Positions 1 to 28,126 of a stretch of DNA of 28,243 bases are shown here, one piece after another. Both the position numbers and the translations under genes were made by a program. The stretch lies in the IMG/VR virus record IMGVR_UViG_3300017917_002319, positions 1-28,243 of that record. One strand, written 5' to 3'. The DNA is from a virus. The first letter of the stretch is position 1; every line of letters starts with the position of its first letter. The notes beneath the pieces were generated by a model that had not been told where the DNA came from, did not search any database, and saw nothing but the letters and a program-made list of their open reading frames with translations.

Positions 1-1004
1 AATTACCATGTTGGCAGTTTGATACAACTGGTATCGATTTAACTGATAGAGGTTTTATTTTACTTGGTGGTGATGGTAAACAATATGGTTTCTATAATAA
101 TGTAACAAGTACATTCTATCAAACACCTAATGTCACTTGGATAGATGTAGGTGCTAGTAATCAATCAGCTTTAATGGCTGCAATTAGTAGTGTTGAATCA
201 AGTGGTACTTATAGTTATAGATTATTCGATGTATACACCGATACAGCTAATTTATTCTGGGCTAAAGGATTATATCCAAATTATTCTACATATTATAATA
301 ATATCAATGGTGGTACTGGTTTATCTATAACACCTATTACCAATGGTAAACAATCAGCAGCACTCACAAGAAAGTTAATTTGTAATACAACTGTTTCTAC
401 TAGTTTTCCAGTATCTGGATTTAAAACACGAAACACTATTCAAGTCAACCCTGCAGTTAATGGTGCTGGTCTTAATGCTGCTAACAGTAACAAATACATT
501 ACTGTATATGATAGTAATTACATAAAGCATGTATTTTGGTTTAACAATACTGGTTCACCTCAATCAGCACCTGCAGTAAATATTAACACATATTATCCAG
601 GTACAATAACACAAATTCATCAAGTAGATTACACTACTGCAGCTACAAATAACGCGTTATATGATTCATTAACTGCAGCACTTGACACTGCTGGTTTTGA
701 TGTAATAAGTAAGACAGCTGGTGCAATAGTGTTTACAACAGGAACACCAGGTTATTCATTAGACATATTTACCAATTATGATGCTGCGGTAATCAGTTCA
801 GTTACACTTGGTGGTGATTATTTAACAGCACAAGTGGCTGGTAATGGTGTACCAGATGTAACATCTATGAGTGAGATATTAATGGATAACATTACATCCA
901 TTGGTTCTCCAGGTATTGTCAATGTAAAGTTACCAGGTGTACCTGCTATTTCATACACAGTAGATTCAGGTACTAGAAATAGCGTAGCATTAATTAAATA
1001 CTAA
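1..1004 (+). CDS. C-terminal part of a fibre-like virion protein (5' end outside window)
   Basis: The reading frame is already open at the window edge (first full codon at base 3) and runs without a stop to TAA at 1004. The ATG at 174 is therefore only an internal methionine and the gene starts upstream of this window. The 333 visible residues are rich in Ser, Thr, Asn, Gly, Tyr and Ala, with few charges and no cysteine-rich or catalytic motif, as in beta-structured fibre or appendage proteins. It ends one base before the ATG of the next fibre gene in the junction TAA-t-ATG, so the two are probably co-expressed. The virion role is inferred from composition and neighbours. I do not recognise the family. 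Confidence 0.75.
   Translation, partial: LPCWQFDTTGIDLTDRGFILLGGDGKQYGFYNNVTSTFYQTPNVTWIDVGASNQSALMAAISSVESSGTYSYRLFDVYTDTANLFWAKGLYPNYSTYYNNINGGTGLSITPITNGKQSAALTRKLICNTTVSTSFPVSGFKTRNTIQVNPAVNGAGLNAANSNKYITVYDSNYIKHVFWFNNTGSPQSAPAVNINTYYPGTITQIHQVDYTTAATNNALYDSLTAALDTAGFDVISKTAGAIVFTTGTPGYSLDIFTNYDAAVISSVTLGGDYLTAQVAGNGVPDVTSMSEILMDNITSIGSPGIVNVKLPGVPAISYTVDSGTRNSVALIKY
993..1000 (+). promoter_or_regulatory. TAAATA late-type promoter core for the fibre gene
   Basis: ATTAAATA lies inside the last codons of the preceding gene. Five bases separate it from the ATG at 1006, the same spacing as the other late-type cores in this window. In T4 the TATAAATA late element sits at -10, which would place +1 on the ATG. 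Being inside a coding region, this copy is less certain than the intergenic ones. Confidence 0.4.
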
Positions 1005-1005
1005 T

Positions 1006-2076
1006 ATGGCAATAGAAATTACAGAAAATACAATTATAAGACTTCTTGTAAGACGTGGTTCAGAAGCTGAGAAAAATACAATTATTTTAGCTCAGGGTGA
1101 ACCAGGATTTGCCTTAGATACTCAGACATTTGTCGTGGGTGATGGTGCAACCAAAGGTGGTTTACCAATACCTAATACTGATGATACATCAATTGAATGG
1201 GCTGGTACAACACCTGATTACATTCAAGTAGCTGATGGTGGTGTAACAAACACTAAATTAGCTAATATGGCTGGTAATAGTGTTAAAGGTAACACTTCAT
1301 CTACACCAACTTCACCATCAGATGTTGGAGTTACTGCAAATAGTTTAGTGGGTAGAATTGGTTCACTTAATAGTGGTAATTTAACATCAATTCCAATTAG
1401 TACAATCTTCAATTCATTTTTCTCTTTAGTAGCACCAGATCCAACTTTCACACAATATTGGTTTAATTTAAACAACTACAAGTGGTATTCATATGATGGT
1501 GTAAGCTGGTTGAGTTTACATCAATATGCTGCATCTGGACCAGAAAGATTACTTTATGTTGGATCAGGTTCATCAGTGGCTACTTATGATGGTGGTGATA
1601 CCAATGCACCTTCAGTTTCTAGCGGACCAATGTGGGAAGTAGATTCTGATTATACATCTAAAGTTTTAAGAGGTGCGGCTGATGGCAACACTGCCACAGT
1701 TCCATTAGATAATGGTGGTAATGATTCAGTGGAAATGACAGCTGCAATGATTGCACCACATAGACACAATGTTGCTGTTTTGATACCTGGACATGGTGGA
1801 AGTGATGGTACAAGAGATGCAGCTGATGGAGGTACATATTCAACACCAAATGCATCAAATCCAAATTTAGACTGGACAGGTATATTATCACCATTACCTC
1901 CAGGAAGCACAGCTGGTAAGTATCCAAAGGATTCATCTGGTTTACCTGCTGTTTATGAGGATTACGGTAATGGAGTTACTAATCCAGCACAACCACCAAC
2001 CAATTTACCAACACTACCTGCATACCAAGGTGTGCTCGTTTTAAAACGCACATCAAGGGCATATTATGTAGTGTAA
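1006..2076 (+). CDS. Tail fibre / receptor-binding protein with Mtd-like N-terminal domain
   Basis: The first 55 or so residues (IIRLLVRRGSEAEK, then LAQGEPGFALDTQTFVVGDG) match the pattern of the Mtd-type N-terminal domain of many phage fibres: a short arginine-containing strand, then GE-PGF and a GDG turn. The middle is Ser/Thr/Asn/Gly-rich with repeated turn-forming residues. The C-terminal third contains APHRHN near residue 250, an HxH motif of the kind that binds metal in T4-type fibre tips, and a glycine/proline-rich tail ending in LVLKRTSRAYYVV. It probably attaches the virion to the host. The domain call is by eye. No reverse transcriptase or template repeat accompanies it here, so nothing suggests a diversity-generating element. 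Confidence 0.65.
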   Translation: MAIEITENTIIRLLVRRGSEAEKNTIILAQGEPGFALDTQTFVVGDGATKGGLPIPNTDDTSIEWAGTTPDYIQVADGGVTNTKLANMAGNSVKGNTSSTPTSPSDVGVTANSLVGRIGSLNSGNLTSIPISTIFNSFFSLVAPDPTFTQYWFNLNNYKWYSYDGVSWLSLHQYAASGPERLLYVGSGSSVATYDGGDTNAPSVSSGPMWEVDSDYTSKVLRGAADGNTATVPLDNGGNDSVEMTAAMIAPHRHNVAVLIPGHGGSDGTRDAADGGTYSTPNASNPNLDWTGILSPLPPGSTAGKYPKDSSGLPAVYEDYGNGVTNPAQPPTNLPTLPAYQGVLVLKRTSRAYYVV

Positions 2077-2083
2077 AAGGTTT

Positions 2084-2320
2084 ATGTCAGCAACAACTAC
2101 GAATTATTTTAAGTCCAATGAAGATTTAAAAACTTTAACGGATAAATGCGTATACATATCTACCATTACAGCTGATGTAGCAATAACTAGTAAAGGTAAT
2201 TTATTTTTAAAGCTTAAATGTAAAAATAAGAATAGAAACAAAATTATCCAAAATTTAGTTGTTTATCTGATCGAAGAGGGTTGGAAAATTAAAAAGACTT
2301 GCAGCATATTTGTTTATTGA
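2084..2320 (+). CDS. Small unknown protein (78 aa)
   Basis: I do not recognise this protein. It starts 7 bases after the fibre gene, and AAAGG lies 4 bases before the ATG, one of very few Shine-Dalgarno-like sequences in the window. The sequence is lysine-rich (KCKNKNRNK in the middle) and ends in a hydrophobic/aromatic tail, ICSIFVY-like. Its last bases overlap the -35 element of the next gene's promoter. No signal peptide or catalytic motif is visible. Confidence 0.55.
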   Translation: MSATTTNYFKSNEDLKTLTDKCVYISTITADVAITSKGNLFLKLKCKNKNRNKIIQNLVVYLIEEGWKIKKTCSIFVY

Positions 2321-2345
2321 TTCGAATTAGGAAATCAGCTATTCT
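2317..2345 (+). promoter_or_regulatory. Sigma70-like promoter for the 116-aa gene
   Basis: TTGATT (2317-2322), a 17-base spacer and TATTCT (2340-2345) stand 6 bases before the ATG at 2352. The expected transcription start falls on or next to the ATG, giving a leaderless transcript. The same geometry recurs in front of several other non-structural genes here, which supports both the promoter and the choice of start codon. Confidence 0.6.
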
Positions 2346-2351
2346 TTGGGC

Positions 2352-2872: not shown

Positions 2873-2878
2873 ATATAT

Positions 2879-2887
2879 TATTTATTG
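2879..2887 (-). promoter_or_regulatory. TAAATA late-type promoter core (minus strand)
   Basis: On the minus strand CAATAAATA ends 6 bases before the ATG at 2872. It resembles the T4 late element TATAAATA and puts the expected start at or beside the ATG. Confidence 0.6.
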
Positions 2888-2904
2888 TTAGATGGTATTA
2901 AACC

Positions 2905-2932
2905 TTGACTATAATTATGAATATTGTATAAT
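2905..2932 (+). promoter_or_regulatory. Sigma70-like promoter for the nuclease gene
   Basis: TTGACT (2905-2910), a 16-base spacer and a perfect TATAAT (2927-2932) stand 5 bases before the ATG at 2938. This is the closest match to the bacterial consensus in the window. With a usual 6-7 base discriminator the first transcribed base would be the start codon itself. Confidence 0.75.
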
Positions 2933-2937
2933 AAATT

Positions 2938-4361: not shown

Positions 4362-4369
4362 CATAAATA
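4362..4369 (+). promoter_or_regulatory. TAAATA late-type promoter core for the tape-measure-like gene
   Basis: CATAAATA ends 5 bases before the ATG at 4375. Two further overlapping TAAATA copies lie at 4346-4355 across the end of the preceding gene, so the site may be duplicated. Confidence 0.65.
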
Positions 4370-4374: not shown

Positions 4375-6210
4375 ATGGCTGCGGTAGACATAATAGATCA
4401 AGCTAAGTTATATGAATCAATCAATAACTTAGCTAAAAGCATTGAAAAGAGCAATGAGAAGATGATCAAAGCTCTTAGTAAGGTTACTGGTGGTACCATT
4501 AAAGGTGAAGGTAAGGTAGCTGATGCACCTACTGCAGTTCAAGATGAGGAAACTGTAAGACGTAAAAGGGGTAAAGTATTTGAAGATGTAATCAATGTAA
4601 ACATCGTTGAACTTGGTGGTAAAGCTATAGATCAGTTAAATAAGATTCTCAAAGGTTTAGTACCTAAAGAAGAGAAGAAAAAAGAAGATATGAAGAAGCC
4701 AGAAGAATCTTCATTTCTTAAAAAACTTCTTGCTTTAGCTCCTTTATTATTACCATTAATAGCTACGCTATTAAAATTCTTAGCTGGATTGAGCGGTGAT
4801 AAATTATTTGAATTTTTAGCTAATTTATTTCCTAAAATATTTGATATCGGTAAACTTACAGATGGTATTATGGATATAATGAAAGCAGTGGGTACATTGC
4901 TTTCAGATGGTTTTAAATTATTTAAAGAAACCAAATTAGGTAAATTTTTCAGTGAATTAGGCGACGACATAGCTAAACTCTTTAAAGAGAATAAACTGTT
5001 TCAAAAGTTATTCGGTGAAGCAGGTATTTTCAGTAAAGTGTTCGGTAAGGCTGGTTTCTTTGCTAAATTATTCGGTGAAGGAAGTACTTTTGCCAAAATC
5101 TTTGATACTGCTGGTGATGCTGCAAAAGTACTCACCGGTGGCTTTTTCGGTAAAATCTTCAAAGGTGTCGGTAAAACAGTATTAAAGAGATTACCATTAT
5201 TAGGTTCGATATTTAGCTTTTATGATGCATATACTGAACTTTCAAGTGGTGATTACTTAAGTGGTTTCACTAGCTTATTAAGCGGTATTGCTAATCTCTT
5301 CCCTGGCGTCGGTTCAGTAATATCTATAGGTTTAGATTTCTTAAATTACCTCTTCAAAACTGAATCAATGCAAGATTTCAAAGCAAATCTCAATCAAGGT
5401 TTGTTCACTCAAGCATTCAGTAGTTTAGGTGATACATTAGTTCAGAAGGTACCATTCTTAAAGTGGTTTTATGATTTATCTGAAAATATAGGTGGTGCGC
5501 TTGCTGGCGATACTGAATCTATTATTAAGTTATTTGATCAATTTGGATTAGGTAATTTAGCTAAATGGATGTTCAGTGATAACATGATGGATAAAGCAAC
5601 TGCATTCACTGATGCTTCAGTATTTGAGCAATTGATAATTACCGGTATAGTTAATCCAATAACTAAATTAATTGAGTGGTTTAACAGTATGTTTGGTAAT
5701 CTCATTGAATCAGCTAAAGAAAAGGTAAAAGGCTTCTTTGGCTTTGGTAAGAGTGAAGATAAAGGTGAGTATGATCAAGCTGCTGAAACTAAGAGATTAG
5801 AAGAGAATCTCAAGGCTAAGAAAGCTCAAAAACTCAAAGAACAAGAAATGATGCTCAAACAGCAAAAGGAACAAGGTTATGAGCAATTGAATGACTTCAC
5901 TTCTGAGCCTGAAAACATAATTAAACGTGGTGATGTTATCAAGAAGTTCTCTAAAGATGATGCTATCATAGGTTTCAAACCAGGTGGTGATATAGATAAG
6001 ATGTTTAAGAATGTAATTAAGTTCTTAGGTGATACAGTTAACAATGGTAAGGAGCTTGTCGATGTGGGTAAAAAGCAAATGGAATTGATGCAAGCATTAT
6101 TAGAGAAGAATAACTCTAATCTTATTAATAACAGTACAAGTAACAATACATATGTATTAGCTTCTAGATCTAGTGTTGATTCATTTAGAGAAGATGCATT
6201 GCGTTATTAA
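4375..6210 (+). CDS. Large hydrophobic virion protein, probable tail tape measure or hub protein (gp29/gp28 position)
   Basis: The 611-residue protein has several clear zones. Residues 10-45 form a polar coiled coil (LYESINNLAKSIEKSNEKM). A hydrophobic stretch follows at about 120-148 (LLALAPLLLPLIATLLKFLAGL). Five tandem decapeptides of the form F-G-x-A-G-x-F-x-K-L/V/I occupy 203-252. Glycine-rich membrane-like helices follow at about 265-335, and a charged coiled coil (QAAETKRLEENLKAKKAQKLKEQEMM) lies near 465-500. Hydrophobic centre plus coiled coils is typical of tape-measure proteins. The length is close to T4 gp29 (590 aa), and the gene lies just before the gp48-like gene, where T4 has gene 29. 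It could instead be a hub or membrane-penetration protein, since no sequence signature of gp29 was recognised. Confidence 0.5.
   Translation: MAAVDIIDQAKLYESINNLAKSIEKSNEKMIKALSKVTGGTIKGEGKVADAPTAVQDEETVRRKRGKVFEDVINVNIVELGGKAIDQLNKILKGLVPKEEKKKEDMKKPEESSFLKKLLALAPLLLPLIATLLKFLAGLSGDKLFEFLANLFPKIFDIGKLTDGIMDIMKAVGTLLSDGFKLFKETKLGKFFSELGDDIAKLFKENKLFQKLFGEAGIFSKVFGKAGFFAKLFGEGSTFAKIFDTAGDAAKVLTGGFFGKIFKGVGKTVLKRLPLLGSIFSFYDAYTELSSGDYLSGFTSLLSGIANLFPGVGSVISIGLDFLNYLFKTESMQDFKANLNQGLFTQAFSSLGDTLVQKVPFLKWFYDLSENIGGALAGDTESIIKLFDQFGLGNLAKWMFSDNMMDKATAFTDASVFEQLIITGIVNPITKLIEWFNSMFGNLIESAKEKVKGFFGFGKSEDKGEYDQAAETKRLEENLKAKKAQKLKEQEMMLKQQKEQGYEQLNDFTSEPENIIKRGDVIKKFSKDDAIIGFKPGGDIDKMFKNVIKFLGDTVNNGKELVDVGKKQMELMQALLEKNNSNLINNSTSNNTYVLASRSSVDSFREDALRY
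4981..5130 (+). repeat. Five tandem 30-bp units encoding decapeptide repeats
   Basis: Units begin at 4981, 5011, 5041, 5071 and 5101. They encode FKENKLFQKL, FGEAGIFSKV, FGKAGFFAKL, FGEGSTFAKI and FDTAGDAAKV. The first and last units have diverged most, as in an old internal duplication. Phe at position 1, Lys at 9 and a hydrophobic residue at 10 recur in every unit. Confidence 0.8.
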
Positions 6211-6213
6211 ATA
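6206..6213 (+). promoter_or_regulatory. TAAATA late-type promoter core for the gp48-like gene
   Basis: ATTAAATA overlaps the stop codon of the preceding gene and ends 6 bases before the ATG at 6220. Confidence 0.55.
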
Positions 6214-6219: not shown

Positions 6220-7515
6220 ATGAGTTACCCATTTAATTTTGCATTTCTATATGGAGCAGAGAATGATGGCACAGTGCCACCATTAGCTGTACCTTCTACA
6301 TTTAGTAGGAGTGCTGCTCCAGATGTAGATTACAATCAAAAATGGCTTAACACAGCTTCTAACTTTGTAGAAAACAATATATCAACTCTTGGTTTTGTAC
6401 AGGATTTAAGTAACAACTATCCAACATCTACTTTAAATGATATTGTATCATACTATAAGAATGACCCAAATAAAAAGGTAGATCTTATAGATATAGTAAA
6501 TGATTTCACATGGACTATATCACCAAGAACAAGTAGAGGTGATGTACCTTATATTTGGTTAAATGAAAGATATATTACATTAAATGCTTTGTTAAATCAG
6601 GCTGTATATGGTATTACTGCTATATTAGATAATAAAGCAGCACAAGCTGTAATACGTACTGGTGTACAACAATTTGAAAGTGCTACAAGTTCATTAAGTA
6701 GCTTAGGTTTATACAATTCAGTAAAGAATGTATTTAAAGATATAGGTCAAGATGCTGCTATAGCTGGTAATAAACTCTTAGATAAATTTGGTATTGTTGA
6801 TACTTTAGGTCCAGTATTAGAAACACCATTAACACCATATAAAGGGTTATACTATACTGTTGAATCAGGTTTCAATTATAGAATACCATTGTTTAATAGT
6901 GAGTTCTGGAATACCTCTAATACCTTTACTGAAGGTGCTGGTGAAGGTAATGCTGACTTTATAGCTGGTTTAGTTGATAGTGTAAAAGCACTCGGTATGG
7001 AAGCATCTAAACTTATCAATACCGGTAGTAATCAATATGGTACATATGTAGAGTTTCCTAAGCAGTATACAATGTCATCACCTGCTTCATACACTGTAAC
7101 ATTTGATTTAATTAATACTAAACCAGCTACCTATACTGATGTAGTATCTAATTTCAAATTACTCTTTTTATTATTTTATCAAAACTTACCAGTAAGAAGG
7201 AGTAAGCAATTAGTGGATCCTCCGGTATTATACAACATATATGTACCGGGGCAGAAGCGTATGCCATATGCATATTTGTCTAGTATTGCTGTAAAAAACT
7301 TAGGTGCAAGTAGATTGATGGAAATAGATTTTACTGGATTGAATTTAATCAATCCACCAGCTACAGCAACTAGTACATTCCCTGAAAAATGGACTACAGT
7401 AGTTCCAGATGGTTATAGGGTAACATTAACGTTCCAAGATTTAATACCAGAAACTAAGAATACTGTATTTTCATCTTTCTTATCCAATTCAATCATACAA
7501 ACAAGTGTAACATAA
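6220..7515 (+). CDS. Baseplate tail-tube cap protein, gp48/gp54-like
   Basis: The 431-residue protein opens with MSYPFNFAFLYG. It contains a C-terminal domain from about residue 275 (YTVTFDLINTKPATYTDVVSNFKLLFLLFYQNLPVRRS, then PPVLYNIYVPG) ending in a beta-rich VTLTFQDLIPET segment. This layout, a beta domain that reports a displacement and then a strand meeting the tube, resembles T4 gp48 and gp54, the proteins that cap the baseplate and start tube assembly. T4 gp48 is 364 aa. It sits after the tape-measure-like gene and before gp53, as in a tail-completion block. The gp48 and gp54 possibilities cannot be separated here. Confidence 0.55.
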   Translation: MSYPFNFAFLYGAENDGTVPPLAVPSTFSRSAAPDVDYNQKWLNTASNFVENNISTLGFVQDLSNNYPTSTLNDIVSYYKNDPNKKVDLIDIVNDFTWTISPRTSRGDVPYIWLNERYITLNALLNQAVYGITAILDNKAAQAVIRTGVQQFESATSSLSSLGLYNSVKNVFKDIGQDAAIAGNKLLDKFGIVDTLGPVLETPLTPYKGLYYTVESGFNYRIPLFNSEFWNTSNTFTEGAGEGNADFIAGLVDSVKALGMEASKLINTGSNQYGTYVEFPKQYTMSSPASYTVTFDLINTKPATYTDVVSNFKLLFLLFYQNLPVRRSKQLVDPPVLYNIYVPGQKRMPYAYLSSIAVKNLGASRLMEIDFTGLNLINPPATATSTFPEKWTTVVPDGYRVTLTFQDLIPETKNTVFSSFLSNSIIQTSVT

Positions 7516-7888: not shown

Positions 7889-9468
7889 TGACAACAGACA
7901 TATACAAATCAATAGATCCATTCATACCACCTTTGTTGCAAAATGTAGTAACATTTAACAAAAGTGAGTATATCTATTGTGTTGTATTATTAAATGGTGA
8001 AGGTCCATTTTTAAATCTTACCACTGAGTCTGTAGTTGGTTTAAATATAGTAGATAACATAACTAAATTCACTCACACCGGTGAATTAGTTGTTTTAAAT
8101 GATAATGACATAATTGAAAGAGCTTATAACAATCCTGGTGAATCCTACACTACTAGACAAGCTGATCTCAATACAAACAGTATCGAATTCTTTTTTAGAG
8201 GTGATGGTAGAGATTTAGTATTAATATTAATTACACCACGTGATTCTGATAATTTAAATTTACAAGATCAGGTATCTTTAACTAACCCATTCACGTTAAA
8301 GTTCTTGTTTAGTATTACAAATATTAGAGATCAAATTACCAGTTCCGGTAAAAAATTAAAAGTACTTACTTTACAAGATTTAGATGAAAGAATCTTAGAA
8401 GAAGTTAATTTAAACTTCTGCACTTCAAAATTTGTTGAAGGTAAAAACTTAACTAATTTAGATAATTCAGAAAGAGGTATTTTAAGTGGTGAAGTAGTAA
8501 GAAACTTGCTTACTAGTGCACTCACACAATCAGGTACTTTTAAAGATAACACTGAAATCAGTTTTGCAACTAATGATGCATGGGATAGTGGTGGTTCTAC
8601 ATTATTTTATAGCTCACCAGCTACCTACAATGCATACAATGATTTAATTTACGTATTACAAAGACACATAAGTGGTCAAACATTTGATTCATGTATTTTA
8701 AGAAAAGAACGTAATAATGTATGGTCTTTAATGAGTGTAGGTAACTATTTTAAATATGGTTACAATAAAGGCACTGATAGTGCTGGTGCATTACATATTG
8801 AAAAATTCTTAGTTCAATCATCAGGCTCCACTGTTAATGTAGTATTAAAGAAAGACAGAACACCTACTGCTCTAGTAAACAATACTGGATATCTTAATAG
8901 TAGTTACATTACCAATTATCAATTATATTACTCTGATGCACAAACGGTGCAGGATGATATAATCACTCATGCAGTACACTCATATCAATTAAACGATAAA
9001 CAATTCAATATTGATATGACAAGAAACAATATTGAGAGTGCAAAGAGAACATTTGAAGATTTCTATGTAAAACCAATGAAAGGTGAAAATGGTAGACCAG
9101 CTCCTTTCTTCTATACAAATGCAATAAGAAATTCAAATCGTAATATTAAGAATACATTCAGCTTAGCAGATTACAGTTTAGATCAAAGGTTAAACTGGGG
9201 TAGAAACTATATTCTACTTAATGCAATTTATAGAGGTTTAACAATTGAATTCACTGTAGATGGTATATCTAATAGACAAGCAGGTAGATTTATTTCTATA
9301 GATAGAGAGGATGCTTTACCAACTTCTAGTTTTGATGATAGATTATTAGGTATTTGGTTTATAGTTAATGTTGAACACACATTTACCAGCACAACTTATC
9401 AAACTAAGATTATAGCTGTTAAGACATACTCTTATTCTCCAGTTGGTGGTAATCCTGATATTCAATAA
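7888..9468 (+). CDS. Baseplate hub protein, gp27-like
   Basis: The 526-residue protein is beta-rich. A first domain of about 150 residues contains VGLNIVDNITKFTHTGELVVLNDNDIIERAY and FFFRGDGRDLVLILITPRD, a pattern of paired strands with a G-D-G-R-D turn like the tube-like domains of gp27/gpD hub proteins. A middle region (DLDERILEEVNLNFCTSK) and a long C-terminal domain ending GIWFIVNVEHTFTSTTYQTKIIAVKTY follow; this last strand pair (a V-x-H-x-F segment) is common in hub proteins. T4 gp27 is 391 aa, so this one is larger. Its place directly after gp53 supports a hub role. Assignment is structural inference from the pattern. Confidence 0.45.
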   Translation: MTTDIYKSIDPFIPPLLQNVVTFNKSEYIYCVVLLNGEGPFLNLTTESVVGLNIVDNITKFTHTGELVVLNDNDIIERAYNNPGESYTTRQADLNTNSIEFFFRGDGRDLVLILITPRDSDNLNLQDQVSLTNPFTLKFLFSITNIRDQITSSGKKLKVLTLQDLDERILEEVNLNFCTSKFVEGKNLTNLDNSERGILSGEVVRNLLTSALTQSGTFKDNTEISFATNDAWDSGGSTLFYSSPATYNAYNDLIYVLQRHISGQTFDSCILRKERNNVWSLMSVGNYFKYGYNKGTDSAGALHIEKFLVQSSGSTVNVVLKKDRTPTALVNNTGYLNSSYITNYQLYYSDAQTVQDDIITHAVHSYQLNDKQFNIDMTRNNIESAKRTFEDFYVKPMKGENGRPAPFFYTNAIRNSNRNIKNTFSLADYSLDQRLNWGRNYILLNAIYRGLTIEFTVDGISNRQAGRFISIDREDALPTSSFDDRLLGIWFIVNVEHTFTSTTYQTKIIAVKTYSYSPVGGNPDIQ

Positions 9469-9471
9469 ATA
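9464..9471 (+). promoter_or_regulatory. TAAATA late-type promoter core
   Basis: AATAAATA spans the stop codon of the hub gene and ends 5 bases before the ATG at 9477. Confidence 0.6.
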
Positions 9472-9476: not shown

Positions 9477-10367
9477 ATGCCTAGTACAGAATACTTTAAA
9501 ACAATAGATCCGTATCTATATTCTGTCAATCTCTATTATAATAAAGACTATTATAGAGCATTTTCTAATTACTATAAAGTACTCGTATTCGGTATTGATA
9601 CACTTCAATATTTCATTGAATATAATAAAAGTAAAGTAATAGAGAACCCTATAGATGCAAGAGTTAAATTGTATAAAGAATTAGACTCTACTGGTATGGA
9701 CACATATCAGCAATTACAGTTTAAAATCTATTGGTATGAAAAATTCTTTAGTGATTTAAATCTCATTAAACAAACGTTTTTTCAACAAGTAGAAAATCCA
9801 GTATACTTTCAAGAGATTAGTGATAGTATTGGATTACTTAGAAATTACTTCTGTGTGCCTGATGATTCTACCTTATTGATAAAAGATACTAATTTTTCAG
9901 TACAAGCAAGTGAAGGTATACCATTACCAGTTAATGTTGGATCTGGTGTATATAACAAATTAAGAACTAACACAATTTTAGTATCCACAGAGATGAATTT
10001 TCTTAATACAGTCTTATATAGAAACAACATGTCTAATTTACAAGAGAACTTCACTTATCCAATAGAAGCACATGGTGAAAATCTTGTAACTGATTTCAAC
10101 TATATAGATAAGATTAAAAACATTTCACAAGAAGTGTTAGAAAAGAGTCTACGTCAGTTTTACGGTCAATTATATGATTTAATCTTATTCTATGAGAATT
10201 TTGATTATGGTGATTACGAACAAAATTTAGCTAAGATGCAAAAAGGTGCAATAGAAATAACTATAGAAGGAGCAACTAAGAAAATCACCTATTTACAACA
10301 ACAAGCTCTTTCCTATGTGAACACTGTTAATCTTTACACCACCTTAACAGCCCAAGCTATTAGTTAA
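9477..10367 (+). CDS. Unknown late virion-type protein (296 aa)
   Basis: I do not recognise this protein. It is rich in Tyr, Asn, Phe and Leu, and largely helical by pattern (LQFKIYWYEKFFSDLNLIKQTFFQQ around residue 80). A beta segment sits in the middle (SEGIPLPVNVGSGVYNKLRTNTILVS). A late-type core stands before its ATG, and it closes the hub block, so a structural or assembly role is likely. Its stop overlaps by eight bases the stop of the convergent gene on the minus strand. Confidence 0.55.
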   Translation: MPSTEYFKTIDPYLYSVNLYYNKDYYRAFSNYYKVLVFGIDTLQYFIEYNKSKVIENPIDARVKLYKELDSTGMDTYQQLQFKIYWYEKFFSDLNLIKQTFFQQVENPVYFQEISDSIGLLRNYFCVPDDSTLLIKDTNFSVQASEGIPLPVNVGSGVYNKLRTNTILVSTEMNFLNTVLYRNNMSNLQENFTYPIEAHGENLVTDFNYIDKIKNISQEVLEKSLRQFYGQLYDLILFYENFDYGDYEQNLAKMQKGAIEITIEGATKKITYLQQQALSYVNTVNLYTTLTAQAIS

Positions 10368-10800
10368 TTTCTGTTACTTCAGTTGGTTCATTAGTAAACA
10401 ACTGTTTAAAGATTTCTTCTCTAGTATACTTTAAATTTTTAGTTTCTTCTCTAACTGTTTTCTTTTCAACATCCATCTTTTTAATTTCCTTCATGGTGTT
10501 GTTCTTTTTATCGCTAATAACCAATTTACTCAAGGTATCTAAAGTAGAGGTGGAAGCTTGAATTAACTCAGCTAAAGCAGATACTTCTTTAGCATCAGGT
10601 GCTGCTTCTACCATTGGTTTAATTGTTTGAATGGTGAAATTAGTATCTTGTATAAGTTTACTAGCTTGATCGATAATAAATGATTCTAAATTCTCTTTAG
10701 TTATAGGAATTTGTTCTTGTATTGTATTTTGATTCTTTGCAATTTTGTTAATACCTTGCAATTGCGATACAAGAGAATCAATGTCTGTAGGATCTTCCAT
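10360..10800 (-). CDS. Probable terminase small subunit, gp16-like
   Basis: The 146-residue protein has an acidic N-terminus. A helical centre (ENLESFIIDQASKLIQDT, then AAPDAKEVSALAELIQASTSTLDTLSKLV, residues 62-95) leads into a basic coiled coil. It ends in a conserved-looking TREEIFKQLF near residues 127-136. The arrangement of a two-helix hairpin, an E-V-x-x-L-x-E-L-I segment and a final T-R-E-E-I/V resembles small terminase subunits of T4-like phages (T4 gp16, 164 aa), which load packaging onto DNA. The late-type promoter agrees. The large subunit is not in this window, so the call rests on pattern alone; a coiled-coil scaffold or chaperone is the main alternative. Confidence 0.45.
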   Translation of the reverse strand: MEDPTDIDSLVSQLQGINKIAKNQNTIQEQIPITKENLESFIIDQASKLIQDTNFTIQTIKPMVEAAPDAKEVSALAELIQASTSTLDTLSKLVISDKKNNTMKEIKKMDVEKKTVREETKNLKYTREEIFKQLFTNEPTEVTEIN

Positions 10801-10805: not shown

Positions 10806-10813
10806 TATTTAAG
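10806..10813 (-). promoter_or_regulatory. TAAATA late-type promoter core (minus strand)
   Basis: On the minus strand CTTAAATA ends 5 bases before the ATG at 10800. It is back to back with the sigma70-like promoter of the dUTPase gene. Confidence 0.6.
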
Positions 10814-12138: not shown

Positions 12139-12273
12139 TTACTTACTAGTCTTCTTACCAGTCTTCTTAGCAGACTTAACAGGTGTAGCGGGGGTAGCTA
12201 CTTGCTTAGTTGCGTTTGAAGCAGCACTAATTGTGTTGTTATCGGTATAAACTGCTGTCTTTGCTTTTGCCAT
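12139..12273 (-). CDS. Small lysine-rich basic protein, possibly DNA-binding (44 aa)
   Basis: The minus-strand frame from ATG 12273 encodes 44 residues, MAKAKTAVYTDNNTISAAS ... TPVKSAKKTGKKTSK, then TAA. The C-terminal tail repeats K-K-T/S, with alanine, proline and threonine between, like the tails of histone H1-type and other nucleic-acid-neutralising proteins. It has its own TAAATA late-type core 7 bases upstream and its own terminator 19 bases downstream, so it is a complete single-gene late unit. Late timing and the basic tail suggest a packaged or DNA-condensing protein, which is inference. An alternative is a small structural protein whose tail is a linker. Confidence 0.75.
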   Translation of the reverse strand: MAKAKTAVYTDNNTISAASNATKQVATPATPVKSAKKTGKKTSK

Positions 12274-12360: not shown

Positions 12361-13284
12361 ATGGAATATTTCAATTCTCTTTGGGTAGAAAAGTATCGTC
12401 CCAAAACACTTAATGACATGGTCATAAGTGCTAGCAATCAGGTTTTTATTGAAAAATTTAAGAATAATGAGATACCCACTTTGCTTTTTGTTGGTAATCC
12501 TGGTACAGGTAAAACTACCTTAGCTAAGATCATAGTTAATGAGATATTGAATACTCAATATCTTTACATTAATGCATCAGATGAAAACGGTATTGATACA
12601 ATTCGTACCAAGGTGATGGGATTTGCTCAAACAAGAGGATTCACTGAAACTGTTAAAGTAATTATACTTGATGAAGCAGATGGTTTATCTCCAGATTCAC
12701 AACGTGCATTGCGTAATGTAATGGAAGAGTATGCTAAACATACTCGCTTTATTCTTACTGCAAATTACAAGCATAGAATCATTGAACCATTGCGTAGTAG
12801 GTGTCAGCAAGTAGATCTTACTTTTGATATGCCTTCTGTGGTAAATAGAATGGTTTCTATTCTCAATAATGAGAAGGTTACCTATAATATTGAGAATGTA
12901 AAGAATATTGTAAAGAGCTCATTTCCTGATATTCGTCTTACAATCAATAAAATTCAGAAAGCAATTGTTAATAATGAATTAGTTATTGATAGTAAGCTAT
13001 CAGTTAAGGTAGTTAATGACTTATATTGTTTAGTTAAGAAGGGTTTCGCATTGAAATCTAGACAATATATGATTCAAAAGCAAGATGATTTTGGAAATGA
13101 CTTTCAAAAGCTTCTTAAAGACTTATTTGACTGTATTGATAGTGATTCTACGTTAGAAGAGAACAATAAAAAACTCGCTTTAATTACTGTGCATGACCAC
13201 ATTTATAAAGCGAGTTTTGTAGCAGATCAAGAGATCAATGCTTATGTATGTCTCATTAATTTATCAAAATTGTTATCTTCTTAA
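12361..13284 (+). CDS. Sliding clamp loader ATPase subunit (gp44-type, RFC small-subunit family)
   Basis: This AAA+ ATPase opens the sliding clamp and loads it at primer junctions during phage DNA replication. The 307 residues begin LWVEKYRPKTLNDM, the family's N-terminal signature. The Walker A site is GNPGTGKTT (45-53), Walker B is VIILDEAD (100-107), sensor 1 is ILTANY (131-136), and PLRSRCQ (143-149) carries the SRC arginine finger. T4 gp44 is 319 aa, so the length fits. The clamp (gp45) and small loader subunit (gp62) are not in this window. An early-type promoter precedes it. The 3' end overlaps the convergent minus-strand gene by 12 bases with no terminator between. Confidence 0.93.
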   Translation: MEYFNSLWVEKYRPKTLNDMVISASNQVFIEKFKNNEIPTLLFVGNPGTGKTTLAKIIVNEILNTQYLYINASDENGIDTIRTKVMGFAQTRGFTETVKVIILDEADGLSPDSQRALRNVMEEYAKHTRFILTANYKHRIIEPLRSRCQQVDLTFDMPSVVNRMVSILNNEKVTYNIENVKNIVKSSFPDIRLTINKIQKAIVNNELVIDSKLSVKVVNDLYCLVKKGFALKSRQYMIQKQDDFGNDFQKLLKDLFDCIDSDSTLEENNKKLALITVHDHIYKASFVADQEINAYVCLINLSKLLSS

Positions 13285-13893
13285 GCCCATATAGATAGAG
13301 GTATATGATTTTGTACCTCCTTGATCAGCTAACTTACCAGTATCACTACCATGAGGTATCTTTACTTGAGTATTGAGTAAGTTTGTTTGTGATGGTGCAG
13401 TAGCTGAACCAATTTCAGGATTTTGTGAAGTTTTACGTGTTTGATTCTTCACAATTTCCTGTTCATCTTCTTCATACTCAGCAACTGTAATTGGTTTGAT
13501 ATTTTCTTTATTATCATAATGATGACTACCTGCAACGGGTGTCAAATTAGGATAAGCATCAATACGTTGAAGAAGATCAGCTGGACAGGTAACATATTCG
13601 TAAACCTTACCTGGCATTACTTCTTGCGAGATATCACAAGATACCAATCCATCCATATTATCATCATTACCTGGTTGTGTGGATGGGTAATGGTTCTTAA
13701 TGTTAGTAATTCTGATTGGTAAGTCGCTATTAGCGTACATTACTAATCTACGCTGAATTTCATCATTTAAAGCTTTAAAGGATGTCATTCTATCATAGCC
13801 ATCTTTAAACTTAACTATATCACCAACTAAGAAACCACCTCTAGTATATCTATTGATAGTGCTCTCCAAAATCTTGATAAATTTTTTATTCAC
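13273..13893 (-). CDS. Unknown late-type protein (206 aa), GTG start
   Basis: I do not recognise this family. The N-terminus (FIKILESTINRYTRGGFLVGDIVKFKDGY) has a helix followed by a G-G-F-L-V-G-D-I-V-K-F strand pair. The second half is low-complexity, polar and probably disordered (EEDEQEIVKNQTRKTSQNPEIG, then SQTNLLNTQV). The start is GTG at 13893: a late-type core AATAAATA lies 5 bases upstream, exactly as for ATG-started late genes, and no ATG in frame fits. The late promoter and the position between replication and baseplate genes suggest a virion or assembly protein. It runs back to back with gp25. Confidence 0.6.
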   Translation of the reverse strand: MNKKFIKILESTINRYTRGGFLVGDIVKFKDGYDRMTSFKALNDEIQRRLVMYANSDLPIRITNIKNHYPSTQPGNDDNMDGLVSCDISQEVMPGKVYEYVTCPADLLQRIDAYPNLTPVAGSHHYDNKENIKPITVAEYEEDEQEIVKNQTRKTSQNPEIGSATAPSQTNLLNTQVKIPHGSDTGKLADQGGTKSYTSIYMGLRR

Positions 13894-13898: not shown

Positions 13899-13906
13899 TA
13901 TTTATT
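13899..13906 (-). promoter_or_regulatory. TAAATA late-type promoter core (minus strand)
   Basis: On the minus strand AATAAATA ends 5 bases before the GTG at 13893, supporting that unusual start. Confidence 0.65.
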
Positions 13907-13919: not shown

Positions 13920-13927
13920 ATTAAATA
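13920..13927 (+). promoter_or_regulatory. TAAATA late-type promoter core for gp25
   Basis: ATTAAATA ends 5 bases before the ATG at 13933. With the minus-strand core at 13899-13906 it forms a divergent late promoter pair only about 15 bases apart. Confidence 0.65.
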
Positions 13928-13932: not shown

Positions 13933-14418
13933 ATGGGTAATATAAATTTATCCCAACTAGCTAATTTACCACAATCGACAACTGGTTACAAATATTCTGA
14001 TTTAACTCTCGATATTGCATCAGAAACCACGAGAACTGACTATCTCAACTCTCAATACAGTAATAACGATTTACAAGCACAATACGATTTAGGTGCTATA
14101 AAAGATAGTATTCGTAACATTTTTATTACATTTCCTGGTCAAAAGTTATTAAACCCTACATTTGGGTTAAATTTAATGCAATTTTTATTTTTACCAGTGT
14201 CAGATGTTACGGCAAACCTTATCGGTCAACGTATCTTAAATGGTTTAATAATAAACGAACCTCGTATTACAGTTAAAAAGATATATGTAGATGGTGTGTC
14301 AGATGAAAATCGATATAACATTACCTTACAGATAACTGTACCACTTATAAATACTTATACAATTTTCACATTGAAAGGTACATTAAATAGTACTGGGTTT
14401 AACTTTTACAACTTTTAA
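13933..14418 (+). CDS. Baseplate wedge protein, gp25/gpW family
   Basis: The 161-residue protein contains the lysozyme-like gp25 fold pattern. KYSDLTLDI (residues 20-28) is followed by DLGAIKDSIRNIFITFPGQKLLNPTFGLNLMQFLF (55-89), where the F/T-x-P-G-x-x-x-x-x-P-x-F-G-x-x-L core is diagnostic. The C-terminal strands (RITVKKIYVDGVSDENRYNITLQITVPL) match the EPR-I-x-V segment; an E-P-R-I motif is present. gp25 is part of the wedge core that triggers sheath contraction. T4 gp25 is 132 aa, so there is an N-terminal extension of about 25 residues. The gp6-type gene follows two bases later, the conserved gp25-gp6 order. Confidence 0.85.
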   Translation: MGNINLSQLANLPQSTTGYKYSDLTLDIASETTRTDYLNSQYSNNDLQAQYDLGAIKDSIRNIFITFPGQKLLNPTFGLNLMQFLFLPVSDVTANLIGQRILNGLIINEPRITVKKIYVDGVSDENRYNITLQITVPLINTYTIFTLKGTLNSTGFNFYNF

Positions 14419-18576: not shown

Positions 18577-18584
18577 AATAAATA
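18577..18584 (+). promoter_or_regulatory. TAAATA late-type promoter core
   Basis: AATAAATA, extending into CTATT as in the T4 late element, ends 6 bases before the ATG at 18591 in a 23-base intergenic gap. Confidence 0.75.
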
Positions 18585-18590: not shown

Positions 18591-21500
18591 ATGCCAATAG
18601 ATATACAAAGGTTTTCAGAGTATAGACCACCTGATTCAATTACATTATTAGGCGATGTAAAAATTGCAAAGGACTATCAAAACCCATTTGCTTTTTCCAC
18701 ATGGTTAAATAGTTTCAAGCAGTTTAATGAATCACCAGAGATCTATATTGATCTGTATAGAAAATATCTATCTAAATGGTATGTTGTAAAGAATAACATT
18801 ATTCTTACAAATGCAGAATTAATTGTCTTATCATATACAAGTATCTTCTATGATTTACAATTAACCTATTTTACTACTGATGAGAGAAGATTCTTAACTA
18901 CTCTCGATTATAATAAAAGACAAGACATTGACATAGCAATTCCATTCTTTGCTCGTAAGATTAAATCCATCTGTAAAAACTTAGTAGATTTACGTGAAGC
19001 AATTAAGAGTCAACCAGTTAAACTTAACCTTGGTGGTACTAGAGAAACTCTTAGTAAATTGATTTATGATAGTATCTATGCTTCATTTAAGGATACCGAT
19101 CTCCAACCATTATTCTATAAAGATGATATATCAGAAGAAACCATTTTAAACAGTACTAGAGTCTTAGTAGAAGAATTATATGATGATACTGATTACTATG
19201 TTCTTTCTGGTTACAATGAACAGATACCAATTGAGTATCAATTATTCTTAGATTTCTCTAGTGCTATATTAGCACAATTAAGTGCAGTAGAATTCATCGT
19301 ACCTGAATTATCTGATTACCTTACATTTACACCTGATTTACAATCTACAGATTTACAGTACTTATACGATAAAGATTTCATTAACACAATAAACAATGGT
19401 TTAAGTGCTAATTTAAATCTTAATAATTTAGCTGAACTTACTAAGAAGTTTGCTGGTAGTGATTTCTATTACTTAAGTACTAATAGCCAAACAGAAGTAG
19501 TATCAGGTTTATTATTTGCTACAACTTCTAAGAGTGCAAATGATCAAAATATTTTCAACTTAAAGTTTGCACTTAAACAATTAGTAGGTGATAATCTTTA
19601 TACAGCTAGAGATGTTGGTGGTTTTTATTTACCAGATAGAATTGGAATGTTATATTACAATCCAATAAAGTCTACCTATACAATTAATAATGAAGGTTTA
19701 CAACCAGACACTGTAATTGTATATCCTAATCCTGATGTATACCCATATGATAATAATGGTGTTTTAAGCTTTGTTTATAACACCACAGTCTTCAAGCATA
19801 CAATTTCTGATCAGTATATATTTGGTGATATTAAGGATGATAGAAACTTACCAGATTTCAAAGGTTATCAGAGTTACAATCAAAGTGTTAATAACTATTT
19901 CAGTAACATTAGTAAACCAACTGATAGTGTAGGTTTCTTTAAAAACAGTAGAGATAACATTTGGTTAAATCCTGATGTATACCCTATAGATAATACTGCT
20001 GTATTTCCTGTAAGCTCTAGACAAAATAAATTACTTGTAGACAATAACACTGATGTAATTAAATTCAGAACTGATGTATATGGTAATAGCTATGGTTTAT
20101 TAAAAGAAGCATTTGCTGTAGAGAATATAAATTTTAATGCTAATCAATTTGCAACCATATTATTGAATTACTTCGATGGATTCTTCTTCAACTGGACTAG
20201 ATTCTCTGGTAATGATTTCGATTATTATGTAACAACCCCTGAAATTGAAGGTTACATAAGATCTGGTTTAAGTGCAACCACTTTCGATCAAATATCTACA
20301 GTAGGTAATCCATATATATTTGGTGGTAATGATAACATACCAATGTTTGCATTATCTGGTAATTACATATATATCTATGGTGGTTCATTTACTGATCTCT
20401 ATGGTAATTCATTACCAACTACAATATATGTAGGTACTGTAATATATGATGGATATACATTTACCAATCAGAGTAATGGTCAATTATTTTATGAATTACC
20501 ATCTACTGACTCACCTGCATGGCCTGGTAGTGTAAGTAATCAGTTATTATTGTATTATCAGTATTACATAGAAGGTGGTGCAAATAATAATAATGAAAGA
20601 CCTACCTTTACATTTCCAGCTACATTTAAACCAGCTGCATTAGCTAATACAGGTTATTCAAACACTGAAAATGTAATTGATGCTGGTCAATTTATATATG
20701 TTCAAATTATAGATAATGAAGTGGTTCCATATAATCCATTTGCTAATAGAGCAAATAATTATTACGAATCCTCAATACCATATTACGATAATGTATTATC
20801 TGGTAATGAAACAGTGTATACAGCTAATACAGGTTTAAATGATAATTTAGATATATACAAGAAACGTAACATTACATATGGTTCATTAATTGTTAGATCT
20901 GGTAATAATACAATTATATCTCCTATATCATCAGCATTGAGTGCTAACTTTGTTAGATATCCTGATGATGTAAAATCTCAAATTAATAATAACGTTATTG
21001 ATTTTGATATAATCTATGACACTATTATCATTGAAACTACTAATTATAGAGTAGTAGAGAAGATAAACTATGATTATGATACTAATACATTTATAGGTAG
21101 CTATACACCAGCCATTTACATGTCAGTAAGTGCATTAGAACAATCACTTGCTAAATTTGGTGATTTCTGGTTCAATGAATATTATAAGAACGTATTATTC
21201 TTTGATACAACATTATCAAATTCAGTATCTGGTAACTTAAAGATTGTATACCCTTCAGTATATAAGTTAGATTTAGTTAACTATGAATTCAAACAAATAT
21301 ATCCTTTAAGTAATGAAGATTTAACTAAGTTCAGTTTATCCACATACTTATCTGGTTTATATGATAACACTGTTCAATACTTTAATTTTCAGTATATTTT
21401 CAACCCACAAAATGTAGATGCACCATCAGTGGCTTATAACTATGAAACAGACATATACACGGTAATAGTCAAGATGTATGATAATGCTGGAGCTACTGCA

Positions 21501-21695
21501 ATACAAGAACTTCAATTTAAGTTCATAAGCGGTATATTCACTTTACTAGTTAACAAGTGTTATTTCTTAAATGAACTTATAAGAGATGAAAGTTATAGTA
21601 ATCCAATTACTGCAAACTTTTTAGACTATCTTACACCTGTTTCTGGTTTAAATACTGGTGTGTGGGATAGTGCAATTGGTGTATATAAATTTTAA
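18591..21695 (+). CDS. Very large virion protein of the baseplate region (1034 aa)
   Basis: I cannot assign a family. The length is close to T4 gp7 (1032 aa), the large wedge protein, and the gene lies two after gp6. Residues 1-300 are mostly helical with mixed charge (YLSKWYVVKNNIILTNAELIVLSY, RRFLTTLDYNKRQDIDIAIPFFARKIKSICKNLVDLREAI). The rest is a long Asn/Tyr/Asp/Ser-rich beta region without cysteine clusters. Segments such as NPDVYPYDNNG and NPDVYPIDNT are repeated about 85 residues apart, hinting at internal duplication. It has its own late-type promoter core. A wedge or outer baseplate role is inferred from place and size. Confidence 0.6.
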   Translation: MPIDIQRFSEYRPPDSITLLGDVKIAKDYQNPFAFSTWLNSFKQFNESPEIYIDLYRKYLSKWYVVKNNIILTNAELIVLSYTSIFYDLQLTYFTTDERRFLTTLDYNKRQDIDIAIPFFARKIKSICKNLVDLREAIKSQPVKLNLGGTRETLSKLIYDSIYASFKDTDLQPLFYKDDISEETILNSTRVLVEELYDDTDYYVLSGYNEQIPIEYQLFLDFSSAILAQLSAVEFIVPELSDYLTFTPDLQSTDLQYLYDKDFINTINNGLSANLNLNNLAELTKKFAGSDFYYLSTNSQTEVVSGLLFATTSKSANDQNIFNLKFALKQLVGDNLYTARDVGGFYLPDRIGMLYYNPIKSTYTINNEGLQPDTVIVYPNPDVYPYDNNGVLSFVYNTTVFKHTISDQYIFGDIKDDRNLPDFKGYQSYNQSVNNYFSNISKPTDSVGFFKNSRDNIWLNPDVYPIDNTAVFPVSSRQNKLLVDNNTDVIKFRTDVYGNSYGLLKEAFAVENINFNANQFATILLNYFDGFFFNWTRFSGNDFDYYVTTPEIEGYIRSGLSATTFDQISTVGNPYIFGGNDNIPMFALSGNYIYIYGGSFTDLYGNSLPTTIYVGTVIYDGYTFTNQSNGQLFYELPSTDSPAWPGSVSNQLLLYYQYYIEGGANNNNERPTFTFPATFKPAALANTGYSNTENVIDAGQFIYVQIIDNEVVPYNPFANRANNYYESSIPYYDNVLSGNETVYTANTGLNDNLDIYKKRNITYGSLIVRSGNNTIISPISSALSANFVRYPDDVKSQINNNVIDFDIIYDTIIIETTNYRVVEKINYDYDTNTFIGSYTPAIYMSVSALEQSLAKFGDFWFNEYYKNVLFFDTTLSNSVSGNLKIVYPSVYKLDLVNYEFKQIYPLSNEDLTKFSLSTYLSGLYDNTVQYFNFQYIFNPQNVDAPSVAYNYETDIYTVIVKMYDNAGATAIQELQFKFISGIFTLLVNKCYFLNELIRDESYSNPITANFLDYLTPVSGLNTGVWDSAIGVYKF

Positions 21696-24919: not shown

Positions 24920-24925
24920 TTACAT

Positions 24926-24955: not shown

Positions 24956-24963
24956 GAAAAATC

Positions 24964-24992
24964 TTGAAGTCTTTTGGGAACACCCATATAAT
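24964..24992 (+). promoter_or_regulatory. Sigma70-like promoter for the RadA-like operon
   Basis: TTGAAG (24964-24969), a 17-base spacer and a perfect TATAAT (24987-24992). Unlike the other promoters this one lies 39 bases before the ATG (25032), so the mRNA should have a leader of about 32 bases, rich in A, with AAAGAAAAAG. Confidence 0.65.
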
Positions 24993-25031
24993 GTTAGCCG
25001 AAAGAAAAAGTATCCATAAAAAATCCTAAAT

Positions 25032-26173: not shown

Positions 26174-26198
26174 TTTCCTAATTGGTTCTATTTAAACT
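26170..26198 (+). promoter_or_regulatory. Sigma70-like promoter for the TGT-like gene
   Basis: TTGATT (26170-26175) overlapping the preceding stop, a 17-base spacer and TAAACT (26193-26198). The ATG is 9 bases further on, so the leader would be 0-3 bases. Confidence 0.5.
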
Positions 26199-26207
26199 TA
26201 AGTTGTT

Positions 26208-26999: not shown

Positions 27000-27002
27000 T
27001 GA

Positions 27003-27338
27003 ATGAATAACAGCGGGGGTAACTACATCGATTATTTGAACCATATAATTAGCGAAAACTATGCTAATTATTGGAAATTTGAGATCGAAAGAGGTAGTAC
27101 CCCCGCTGATCACTATAAAGCAGATAAATTTATATCTGTATTAAATTTGCTAGAAGAAGTTAAAGCATTTTACATATTAAATGTTCAATATGACACTAAC
27201 TACGATGGTTTAGGTCTTCTTCTAGATTTTGTTTATGGTAAGACTTCTCAATACGATGTTAATTGTATTGAGTTTTTCACTCTTAATATGATAGTTTTAA
27301 GTCTTATTGAATTACTTAAGAGTCAACAAGTACCTTAA
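27003..27338 (+). CDS. Unknown protein (111 aa)
   Basis: I do not recognise it. It starts three bases after the TGT-like gene and is probably co-transcribed. It is mainly helical and rich in Tyr, Asn, Asp and Leu (YIDYLNHIISENYANYWKFEIERG, then NLLEEVKAFYILNVQYD). The first 100 bases contain a GC-rich 11-bp inverted repeat unlike the surrounding AT-rich DNA. The 3' end overlaps the convergent Dps-like gene by 27 bases. Confidence 0.6.
   Translation: MNNSGGNYIDYLNHIISENYANYWKFEIERGSTPADHYKADKFISVLNLLEEVKAFYILNVQYDTNYDGLGLLLDFVYGKTSQYDVNCIEFFTLNMIVLSLIELLKSQQVP
27011..27108 (+). repeat. GC-rich inverted repeat flanking the first 30 codons
   Basis: CAGCGGGGGTA (27011-27021) and TACCCCCGCTG (27098-27108) are exact reverse complements, separated by 76 bases. 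With one bulged A the stem continues CTAC/GTAG to 15 pairs. It begins 6 bases after the ATG of its gene. AGCGGGGGTA also occurs at 12187-12196. Confidence 0.7.
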
Positions 27339-27683
27339 TTTATTAACATTAGCTAACATTTCATCTCTAATGTTTAATAACTCTGAATTACGATCTGGTG
27401 AGTAATCAGCACTATTAAGTAATTCAGAAGTAAGATAGTTTACAATATTTTTCATAGCACTATCAATTTTATCTGGTGAATAGTTGATAAGTGGTATTTG
27501 AAAGTCATCTCCCACAGGAAATATTCTACCATACTTACCCTGATAAACTTCAATAAATTCATCAATGAGGTCATTTAATTCGTCGTATGTCTTACCGAAT
27601 GCTTCATGCTCAGCAAAACTCTTTGTTTGCCAATGGAAAACTTTTAGTTGGTTCAAGATTGCTAACAGATTAATTAATTTCAT
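27312..27683 (-). CDS. Dps/ferritin-like phage protein
   Basis: The 123-residue helical protein carries the Dps-like pattern LNQLKVFHWQTKSFAEHEAFGKTYDELNDLIDEFIEVYQG (residues 10-49). H-W-x-T opens helix A, an E-H pair follows 6 residues on, and the D-E-x-x-E segment (41-45) sits where the ferroxidase ligands of Dps reside. Such small phage homologues are usually annotated as DUF5856/Dps-like. Its role may be iron oxidation, DNA protection or neither. The ATG at 27683 is chosen over TTG 27686 because TAAATA ends 6 bases before it. A late-type promoter is notable for such a protein and hints that it is made with virion proteins. Confidence 0.65.
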   Translation of the reverse strand: MKLINLLAILNQLKVFHWQTKSFAEHEAFGKTYDELNDLIDEFIEVYQGKYGRIFPVGDDFQIPLINYSPDKIDSAMKNIVNYLTSELLNSADYSPDRNSELLNIRDEMLANVNKLRYLLTLK

Positions 27684-27689
27684 CAAAAG

Positions 27690-27697
27690 TATTTATT
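27690..27697 (-). promoter_or_regulatory. TAAATA late-type promoter core (minus strand)
   Basis: On the minus strand AATAAATA, continuing CTTTT, ends 6 bases before the ATG at 27683. It touches the -35 element of the oppositely directed sigma70-like promoter. Confidence 0.7.
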
Positions 27698-27725
27698 TGA
27701 AGGTATGCAAGAGTAAATATATATT
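27697..27725 (+). promoter_or_regulatory. Sigma70-like promoter for the 71-aa gene
   Basis: TTGAAG (27697-27702), a 17-base spacer and TATATT (27720-27725) lie 4 bases before the ATG at 27730. It fixes the start well downstream of the longer open frame. Confidence 0.6.
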
Positions 27726-27729
27726 GAAT

Positions 27730-27945
27730 ATGGTGAATGTTAAAGAAGACGATATTTTTATAGTACACGATATTAAAGTTGCTATAGGTGAACGCAATAG
27801 CAATATCTACTTCTTCAAAGAAGGTAAACATTTGTCATTAGAATTAGATGATTTTGTTCAGATGACCAGACCTATCGTCAAATATCTGTACGAAGAAGGT
27901 TTCATCAAGGTAAAGTCATTGAAAGTGACAATTTTGTCAAAATAA
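27730..27945 (+). CDS. Small unknown protein (71 aa)
   Basis: I do not recognise it. The open frame extends upstream to 27565, but those 55 codons are the reverse of the Dps-like gene, and the promoter stands immediately before ATG 27730. The short form is soluble and beta-rich: VNVKEDDIFIVHDIKVAIGERNSNIYFFKEGKHLSLELDDF, then a helix and a basic strand end (FIKVKSLKVTILSK). The early-type promoter suggests a small early gene. Confidence 0.6.
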   Translation: MVNVKEDDIFIVHDIKVAIGERNSNIYFFKEGKHLSLELDDFVQMTRPIVKYLYEEGFIKVKSLKVTILSK

Positions 27946-27948
27946 TTC

Positions 27949-27977
27949 TTGATTTTATTAAGGAACGTGCGTAATAT
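27949..27977 (+). promoter_or_regulatory. Sigma70-like promoter for the tRNA
   Basis: TTGATT (27949-27954), a 17-base spacer and TAATAT (27972-27977), predicting a start near 27984, ten bases before the mature tRNA 5' end. Confidence 0.6.
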
Positions 27978-27993
27978 ATTTATAGTTAAAAAT

Positions 27994-28080
27994 GCCTAGG
28001 TGACCCGAATGGTTAAGGGACCAGTTTTGTAAACTGGCGGCGAAAGCCAACTGCAGGTTCGATTCCTGTCCTAGGCTCCA
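27994..28080 (+). tRNA. tRNA with anticodon TGT (Thr, ACA) and a long class II variable arm
   Basis: The 87-base cloverleaf is complete. Acceptor GCCTAGG/CCTAGGC has 7 perfect pairs. The D-arm has CCC/GGG and AATGGTTAA in the loop. Anticodon stem CCAGT/ACTGG (5 perfect pairs) encloses TTTGTAA, so positions 34-36 read TGT. T-arm GCAGG/CCTGT encloses TTCGATT, discriminator is T, and CCA is encoded. Between anticodon and T stems there are 15 bases with a GGC-GAAA-GCC hairpin, i.e. a class II arm as in Ser, Leu and Tyr tRNAs, not Thr. G1-C72, C2-G71, G35 and U36 are bacterial threonine identity elements, so charging with Thr is plausible. The D-arm resembles bacterial tRNA-Tyr or tRNA-Ser. Confidence 0.9.
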
Positions 28081-28118
28081 TTTTTCGTAGACCGGTGTAA
28101 AAAATATTATTGAGCTAC

Positions 28119-28126
28119 AATAAATA
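28119..28126 (+). promoter_or_regulatory. TAAATA late-type promoter core
   Basis: AATAAATA, continuing CTTAC, ends 5 bases before the ATG at 28132 in the gap after the tRNA. Confidence 0.65.

Follow-up and report, generated by a model that had tools for sequence, protein, structure and literature searches.

T4-type late boxes placed next to the start codon in a clade of T4-like phages, and the leaderless late mRNAs that they would produce

Late transcription of bacteriophage T4 is a textbook case, in which the mRNAs are described as leadered and as bearing Shine-Dalgarno (SD) sites. The gp55/gp33/gp45 late promoters of T4 have a TAAATA core, no conserved -35 element and a purine as sixth base beyond the box (19 of 23 sites), and they are found on both strands, ahead of baseplate and fibre genes; all these features are shared by the boxes described below. 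The T4 late box, TATAAATA, spans positions -13 to -6, and its -13 position is variable in other phages (PMC1524935). The late promoters of cyanomyoviruses (NATAAATA; S-PM2, Syn9 and P-HM2) also resemble the present ones, in their variable first base and ATAAATA core, but in Syn9, P-HM2 and MS29 the gap to the start codon is about 20 to 40 bases (with the exception of one gene of P-HM2), which makes the mRNAs leadered. In pelagimyophages the prediction of late promoters has been attempted, unsuccessfully (PMC7029224). Leaderless mRNAs with a 5'-terminal AUG, such as those of Mycobacterium, Deinococcus and lambda cI, are like those predicted here; the difference is that in this clade a T4-like phage would have them at most of its operon heads and from two promoter classes. 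In the literature searched, most subscription journals being outside its coverage, no T4-like phage was found to be described as having leaderless late transcription.

The window, a stretch of 28,243 nucleotides that makes up positions 1 to 28,243 of IMG/VR virus record IMGVR_UViG_3300017917_002319, includes homologues of the gp44 clamp loader, gp25 and gp6, which place it among the T4-like phages, although the nearest named phages show less than 40% protein identity to it. Searches with gp6, gp44 and the portal protein brought together contigs of the same clade, which range from nearly identical down to some 50% identity or less, and these contigs add the T4-like core genes gp20, gp23, gp21, gp13, gp15 and gp4. 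A DNA-ligase scan for longer contigs returned other lineages without the motif, which were left out of the analysis. According to the first-pass annotation, TAAATA ends 5 to 7 bases before the start codons of twelve genes; all twelve sites are present at the positions claimed. They are listed here with one sigma70-type promoter, the gap being the number of bases between the end of TAAATA and the start codon; G1 to G5 and L007 are related contigs.

995-1000, plus strand: TAAATA late box, gap 5; gene 1006-2076, fibre-like, with an Mtd N-terminal domain (Pfam PF18454); conserved in G1 and G4
2879-2884, minus strand: TAAATA, gap 6; gene 2699-2872; opposite the sigma70-type promoter of the gene at 2938
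2905-2932, plus strand: sigma70-type promoter TTGACT-N16-TATAAT, its -10 element ending 5 bases before the ATG at 2938 of an exonuclease gene (phrog_298)
4364-4369, plus strand: TAAATA, gap 5; gene 4375-6210; conserved in G1, G2 and G4
6208-6213, plus strand: TAAATA, gap 6; gene 6220-7515; box includes the upstream stop codon TAA; conserved in G1, G2, G4 and L007
9466-9471, plus strand: TAAATA, gap 5; gene 9477-10367; box includes the upstream stop codon TAA; conserved in G1 to G4
10806-10811, minus strand: TAAATA, gap 5; gene 10360-10800; conserved in G1, G5 and L007
12281-12286, minus strand: TAAATA, gap 7; small Lys-rich gene 12139-12273; adjoins an extended TATAAT
13899-13904, minus strand: TAAATA, gap 5; GTG-start gene 13273-13893; box conserved in G1 to G5
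13922-13927, plus strand: TAAATA, gap 5; gp25-like gene 13933-14418 (phrog_261, phrog_43); box in 8 of 8 orthologues
18579-18584, plus strand: TAAATA, gap 6; gene 18591-21695; conserved in G1 to G4
27690-27695, minus strand: TAAATA, gap 6; gene 27312-27683 (phrog_858 / DUF5856); conserved in G1 to G4
28121-28126, plus strand: TAAATA, gap 5; ORF at 28132, open at the window end

A thirteenth TAAATA, with a gap of 7 to the start at 25952, falls within the coding sequence of the preceding gene and is probably a chance match. Counting this one, 13 of the 33 start codons of the window, which were called independently of the motif, have TAAATA at 5 to 7 bases, whereas 2,000 local dinucleotide shuffles yield 0.38 on average and 4 at most; the enrichment proposed by the first-pass annotation is therefore real. 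Other ATGs of the window have the motif at this distance in 3 of 1,030 cases (binomial P about 6e-25), and window-wide TAAATA is depleted (61 sites versus 84.7 in shuffles, sd 8.0). The statement that the marked genes are mainly virion genes holds for the gp25-like and the Mtd-N fibre genes, which can be annotated as such; it is plausible for the remainder, most of which lack a family match. The Mtd_N domain (major tropism determinant) of the fibre-like product of 1006-2076 belongs to a family known from diversity-generating retroelements. In the boxes at 6208-6213 and 9466-9471 the first three bases of TAAATA also serve as the stop codon of the preceding gene, and stop, promoter and next start are found within about 15 bases.

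Throughout the clade, orthologous starts keep the box and its spacing while the flanks diverge, and this extends to contigs with portal identities as low as about 50%; the minus-strand gene at 13893 starts with GTG in G1 to G4 and with ATG in G5. When the clade was pooled (469 starts) the gap distribution was sharp, with 66 starts at gap 5 and 51 at gap 6 where about 0.4 are expected per position. In the more distant relative G5 the box is gone where genes overlap or closely abut. Some soil-type relatives have gaps of 7 to 12, with which short leaders would remain, and this counts against a strict leaderless reading. A further set of relatives (L036, L037 and L046 to L048) has very long tail-region genes of about 1,250 to 1,900 codons, a GC content of 35 to 43% and boxes at 5 to 10 bases.

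Since the T4 box spans -13 to -6, a gap of 5 bases would put +1 on the A of the AUG, and the proposal that transcription starts on or beside the start codon thus agrees with the known position of the T4 box. The bases around the box are informative in this respect. At gap 6 the base immediately upstream of the start codon, which is the sixth after the box, is a purine in 27 of 36 cases, whereas at gap 5 a purine occupies this place next to the codon in 4 of 45 (P 1e-9). Boxes at gap 7 have a purine as the sixth base in 9 of 10. The preferred purine tracks the motif and not the start codon. The TAAATA core is invariant by design of the search, and the base that precedes it is A in 31 of 45 boxes at gap 5 and 25 of 36 at gap 6; two bases before TAAATA, at -13, T is rare and A is the most usual base, so that the first T of TATAAATA is mostly not kept in the clade.

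SD-like tetramers, on the assumption of a canonical host anti-SD, precede 4.8% of 417 clade starts and 4.4% after shuffling, while the values are 56% (15% shuffled) in T4, 49% (16%) in HTVC008M and 23% (9%) in Syn9. Clade starts therefore have no SD above chance, as leaderless genes should. The clade also departs from T4 in the position of the box, 5 to 6 bases from the start codon instead of about 15 to 35. In T4, Syn9, P-HM2, MS29, Mosig, Melnitz-1, AG-345-P14 and an Ochrobactrum phage nearly all boxes are about 15 to 40 bases upstream, and in T4 and the phages of heterotrophs an SD usually follows the far box. The arrangement in the clade is thus distinct from that of T4, as the first-pass annotation had proposed, and from that of most relatives. 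It is not wholly a strategy of its own, because HTVC008M-like phages use gap-5 boxes for part of their late genes.

In the Pelagibacter phage HTVC008M and in related contigs that carry gp55, many late boxes are exactly 5 bases from the start, at genes without SD, but the group is mixed: other late boxes are 15 to 38 bases away, mostly with SD, and SD sites are common elsewhere in the genome. Among the cultured phages compared, HTVC008M alone has many gap-5 boxes, and the homologues of gp4, gp48 and gp25 are among the genes that bear them. Taking HTVC008M, Mosig and Melnitz together, an SD accompanies 2 of 16 near boxes and 23 of 29 far boxes (P 2e-5). In 80 contigs with an HTVC008M-like gp55, a gap of exactly 5 bases is seen at 33 non-redundant starts, 2 of them with SD, and a gap of 16 to 36 bases at 29, 16 of them with SD (P 4e-5). 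This mutual exclusion of near box and SD within one phage group is what a dichotomy of leaderless and leadered mRNAs predicts.

The close placement is not limited to late genes, contrary to what the first-pass annotation implied. Sigma70-type pairs (TTGA, then 15 to 19 bases after the hexamer a TATAAT-like element) end 5 to 9 bases before 29 of 324 non-late clade starts, some rows coming from near-identical contigs, where about 0.1 is expected per position. Genes so marked are that of the exonuclease at 2938 and, in relatives, those of the dUTPase and the clamp loader, among others. In the 80 gp55-bearing contigs the sigma70-type promoters, those of gp55 itself included, peak at exactly 6 bases (27 cases). 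With sigma70 spacing such a placement would put +1 on the start codon, and the early mRNAs should then be leaderless too. A RecA/DnaB-like family (25032 in the window, 36207 in G1, 12742 in G2 and 31072 in G4) has its sigma70-type promoter 29 to 39 bases upstream, with a predicted leader of about 30 bases; judged by this spacing it is a conserved leadered exception in a genome otherwise predicted to be leaderless, and it counts against the general rule.

Sigma70-type -10 boxes at the same distance, and a box at 12273 that adjoins TATAAT, could mean that TAAATA is a -10 variant in leaderless promoters read by the host primary or an alternative sigma factor without gp55. Such a reading would also suit the results of a search for gp55, gp33 and gp45, the proteins whose homologues the first-pass annotation had proposed to look for: neither phrog_234 at loose thresholds (for gp55) nor phmmer with the T4 and HTVC008M proteins (for all three) gave a match on the clade contigs, none of which carries the replisome block. 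However, the box is the core of the T4 late consensus. TTGA occurs at -35 in just 8 of 98 late-box genes, as compared with 11 of 25 TATAAT genes, so that late boxes have no -35 element. Baseplate (gp25) and fibre genes are among those with a box; the genes for the exonuclease, the dUTPase and the clamp loader have a sigma70-type promoter in its place. In addition, gp55 is present on contigs of the mixed-type relatives, and in several of them, e.g. L108 and L133, it shares the contig with gap-5 boxes. We regard reading by a host sigma factor as unlikely.

The fixed distance to the start codon and the AT-rich flank would also be expected if TAAATA were an element for translation initiation, Kozak-like or an AU-rich enhancer, located inside the leader of mRNAs that start farther upstream. 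Hosts that do not use SD sites prefer A-rich sites near the start. However, genes whose start lies no more than 8 bases from an upstream stop on the same strand must be translated as well, and they are mostly without a box: 20 have it and 133 do not, versus 98 and 152 of the other genes (P 1e-8). The motif is a feature of operon heads, and most genes coupled to the stop of a preceding gene lack it, even if some boxed genes do follow a stop within 8 bases, which counts against the rule. A translation element does not explain why the purine follows the phase of the motif, nor why the same box is found 15 to 40 bases upstream, together with an SD, in relatives. Between the divergent start codons at 13893 (minus strand) and 13933 (plus strand) there are 39 bases with a pair of boxes that face outwards; if each RNA starts downstream of its box, a leader would not fit. 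This makes a translation element very unlikely. As for chance matches, TAAATA must be common at a GC content of about 30%, but the counts in the window and the conservation across divergent contigs leave that explanation with practically no probability.

We therefore consider it highly probable that the boxes of this clade are T4-type late promoters giving leaderless late mRNAs. The promoters would be of the gp55 type, with a -10 box but lacking a -35 element, and would stand some 20 bases nearer to the gene than their T4 counterparts. Transcripts would begin with the sixth base downstream of TAAATA, which is the first base of the start codon at gap 5 and one base earlier at gap 6, and the resulting mRNAs would be translated from a 5'-terminal AUG or GUG, probably on 70S ribosomes. 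The downstream genes of each operon may start by coupling to the upstream stop, and the sigma70-type early promoters of the same phages are placed alike. The trait belongs to the expression plan of the phage as a whole, and is probably set by a host that seldom uses SD initiation. On balance we also favour a broader proposal: a T4-like lineage would have dropped 5' leaders and SD sites both early and late, with host-sigma and phage-sigma promoters whose +1 is the start codon and internal genes served by stop-start coupling, and HTVC008M-like phages would represent a mixed stage in which the distance from promoter to start is tuned to host translation.

Regarding the host, a leaderless index was defined as the count of TATAAT-N5-8-ATG compared with the reversed pattern in whole genomes. 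It showed no excess in Pelagibacteraceae or HTCC2181. Two other bins gave 98 matches against 8 for the reversed control (L171, a UBP7 bin, G043) and 83 against 18 (L160, a Rickettsiaceae bin, G036), values that are suggestive of leaderless-rich hosts in little-studied lineages. A Bacteroidota host, considered for the lack of SD, is disfavoured by the TTGA/TATAAT early promoters. Identification through the phage tRNA-Arg was not diagnostic: a 67-base pattern had no match and a 48-base pattern matched 35 stretches in many phyla.

The same box thus appears to double as promoter and as the element that places the start codon, with SD-based control removed altogether. This arrangement is a possible reason for the failed search for late promoters in pelagimyophages (PMC7029224), and it offers a simple rule by which, in uncultured T4-like phages, late operons can be located and start codons called correctly. 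These results suggest that phages shift their promoters to suit the way in which the host starts translation, and they lead to the testable claim that the spacing from promoter to start codon reports how a host begins translation.
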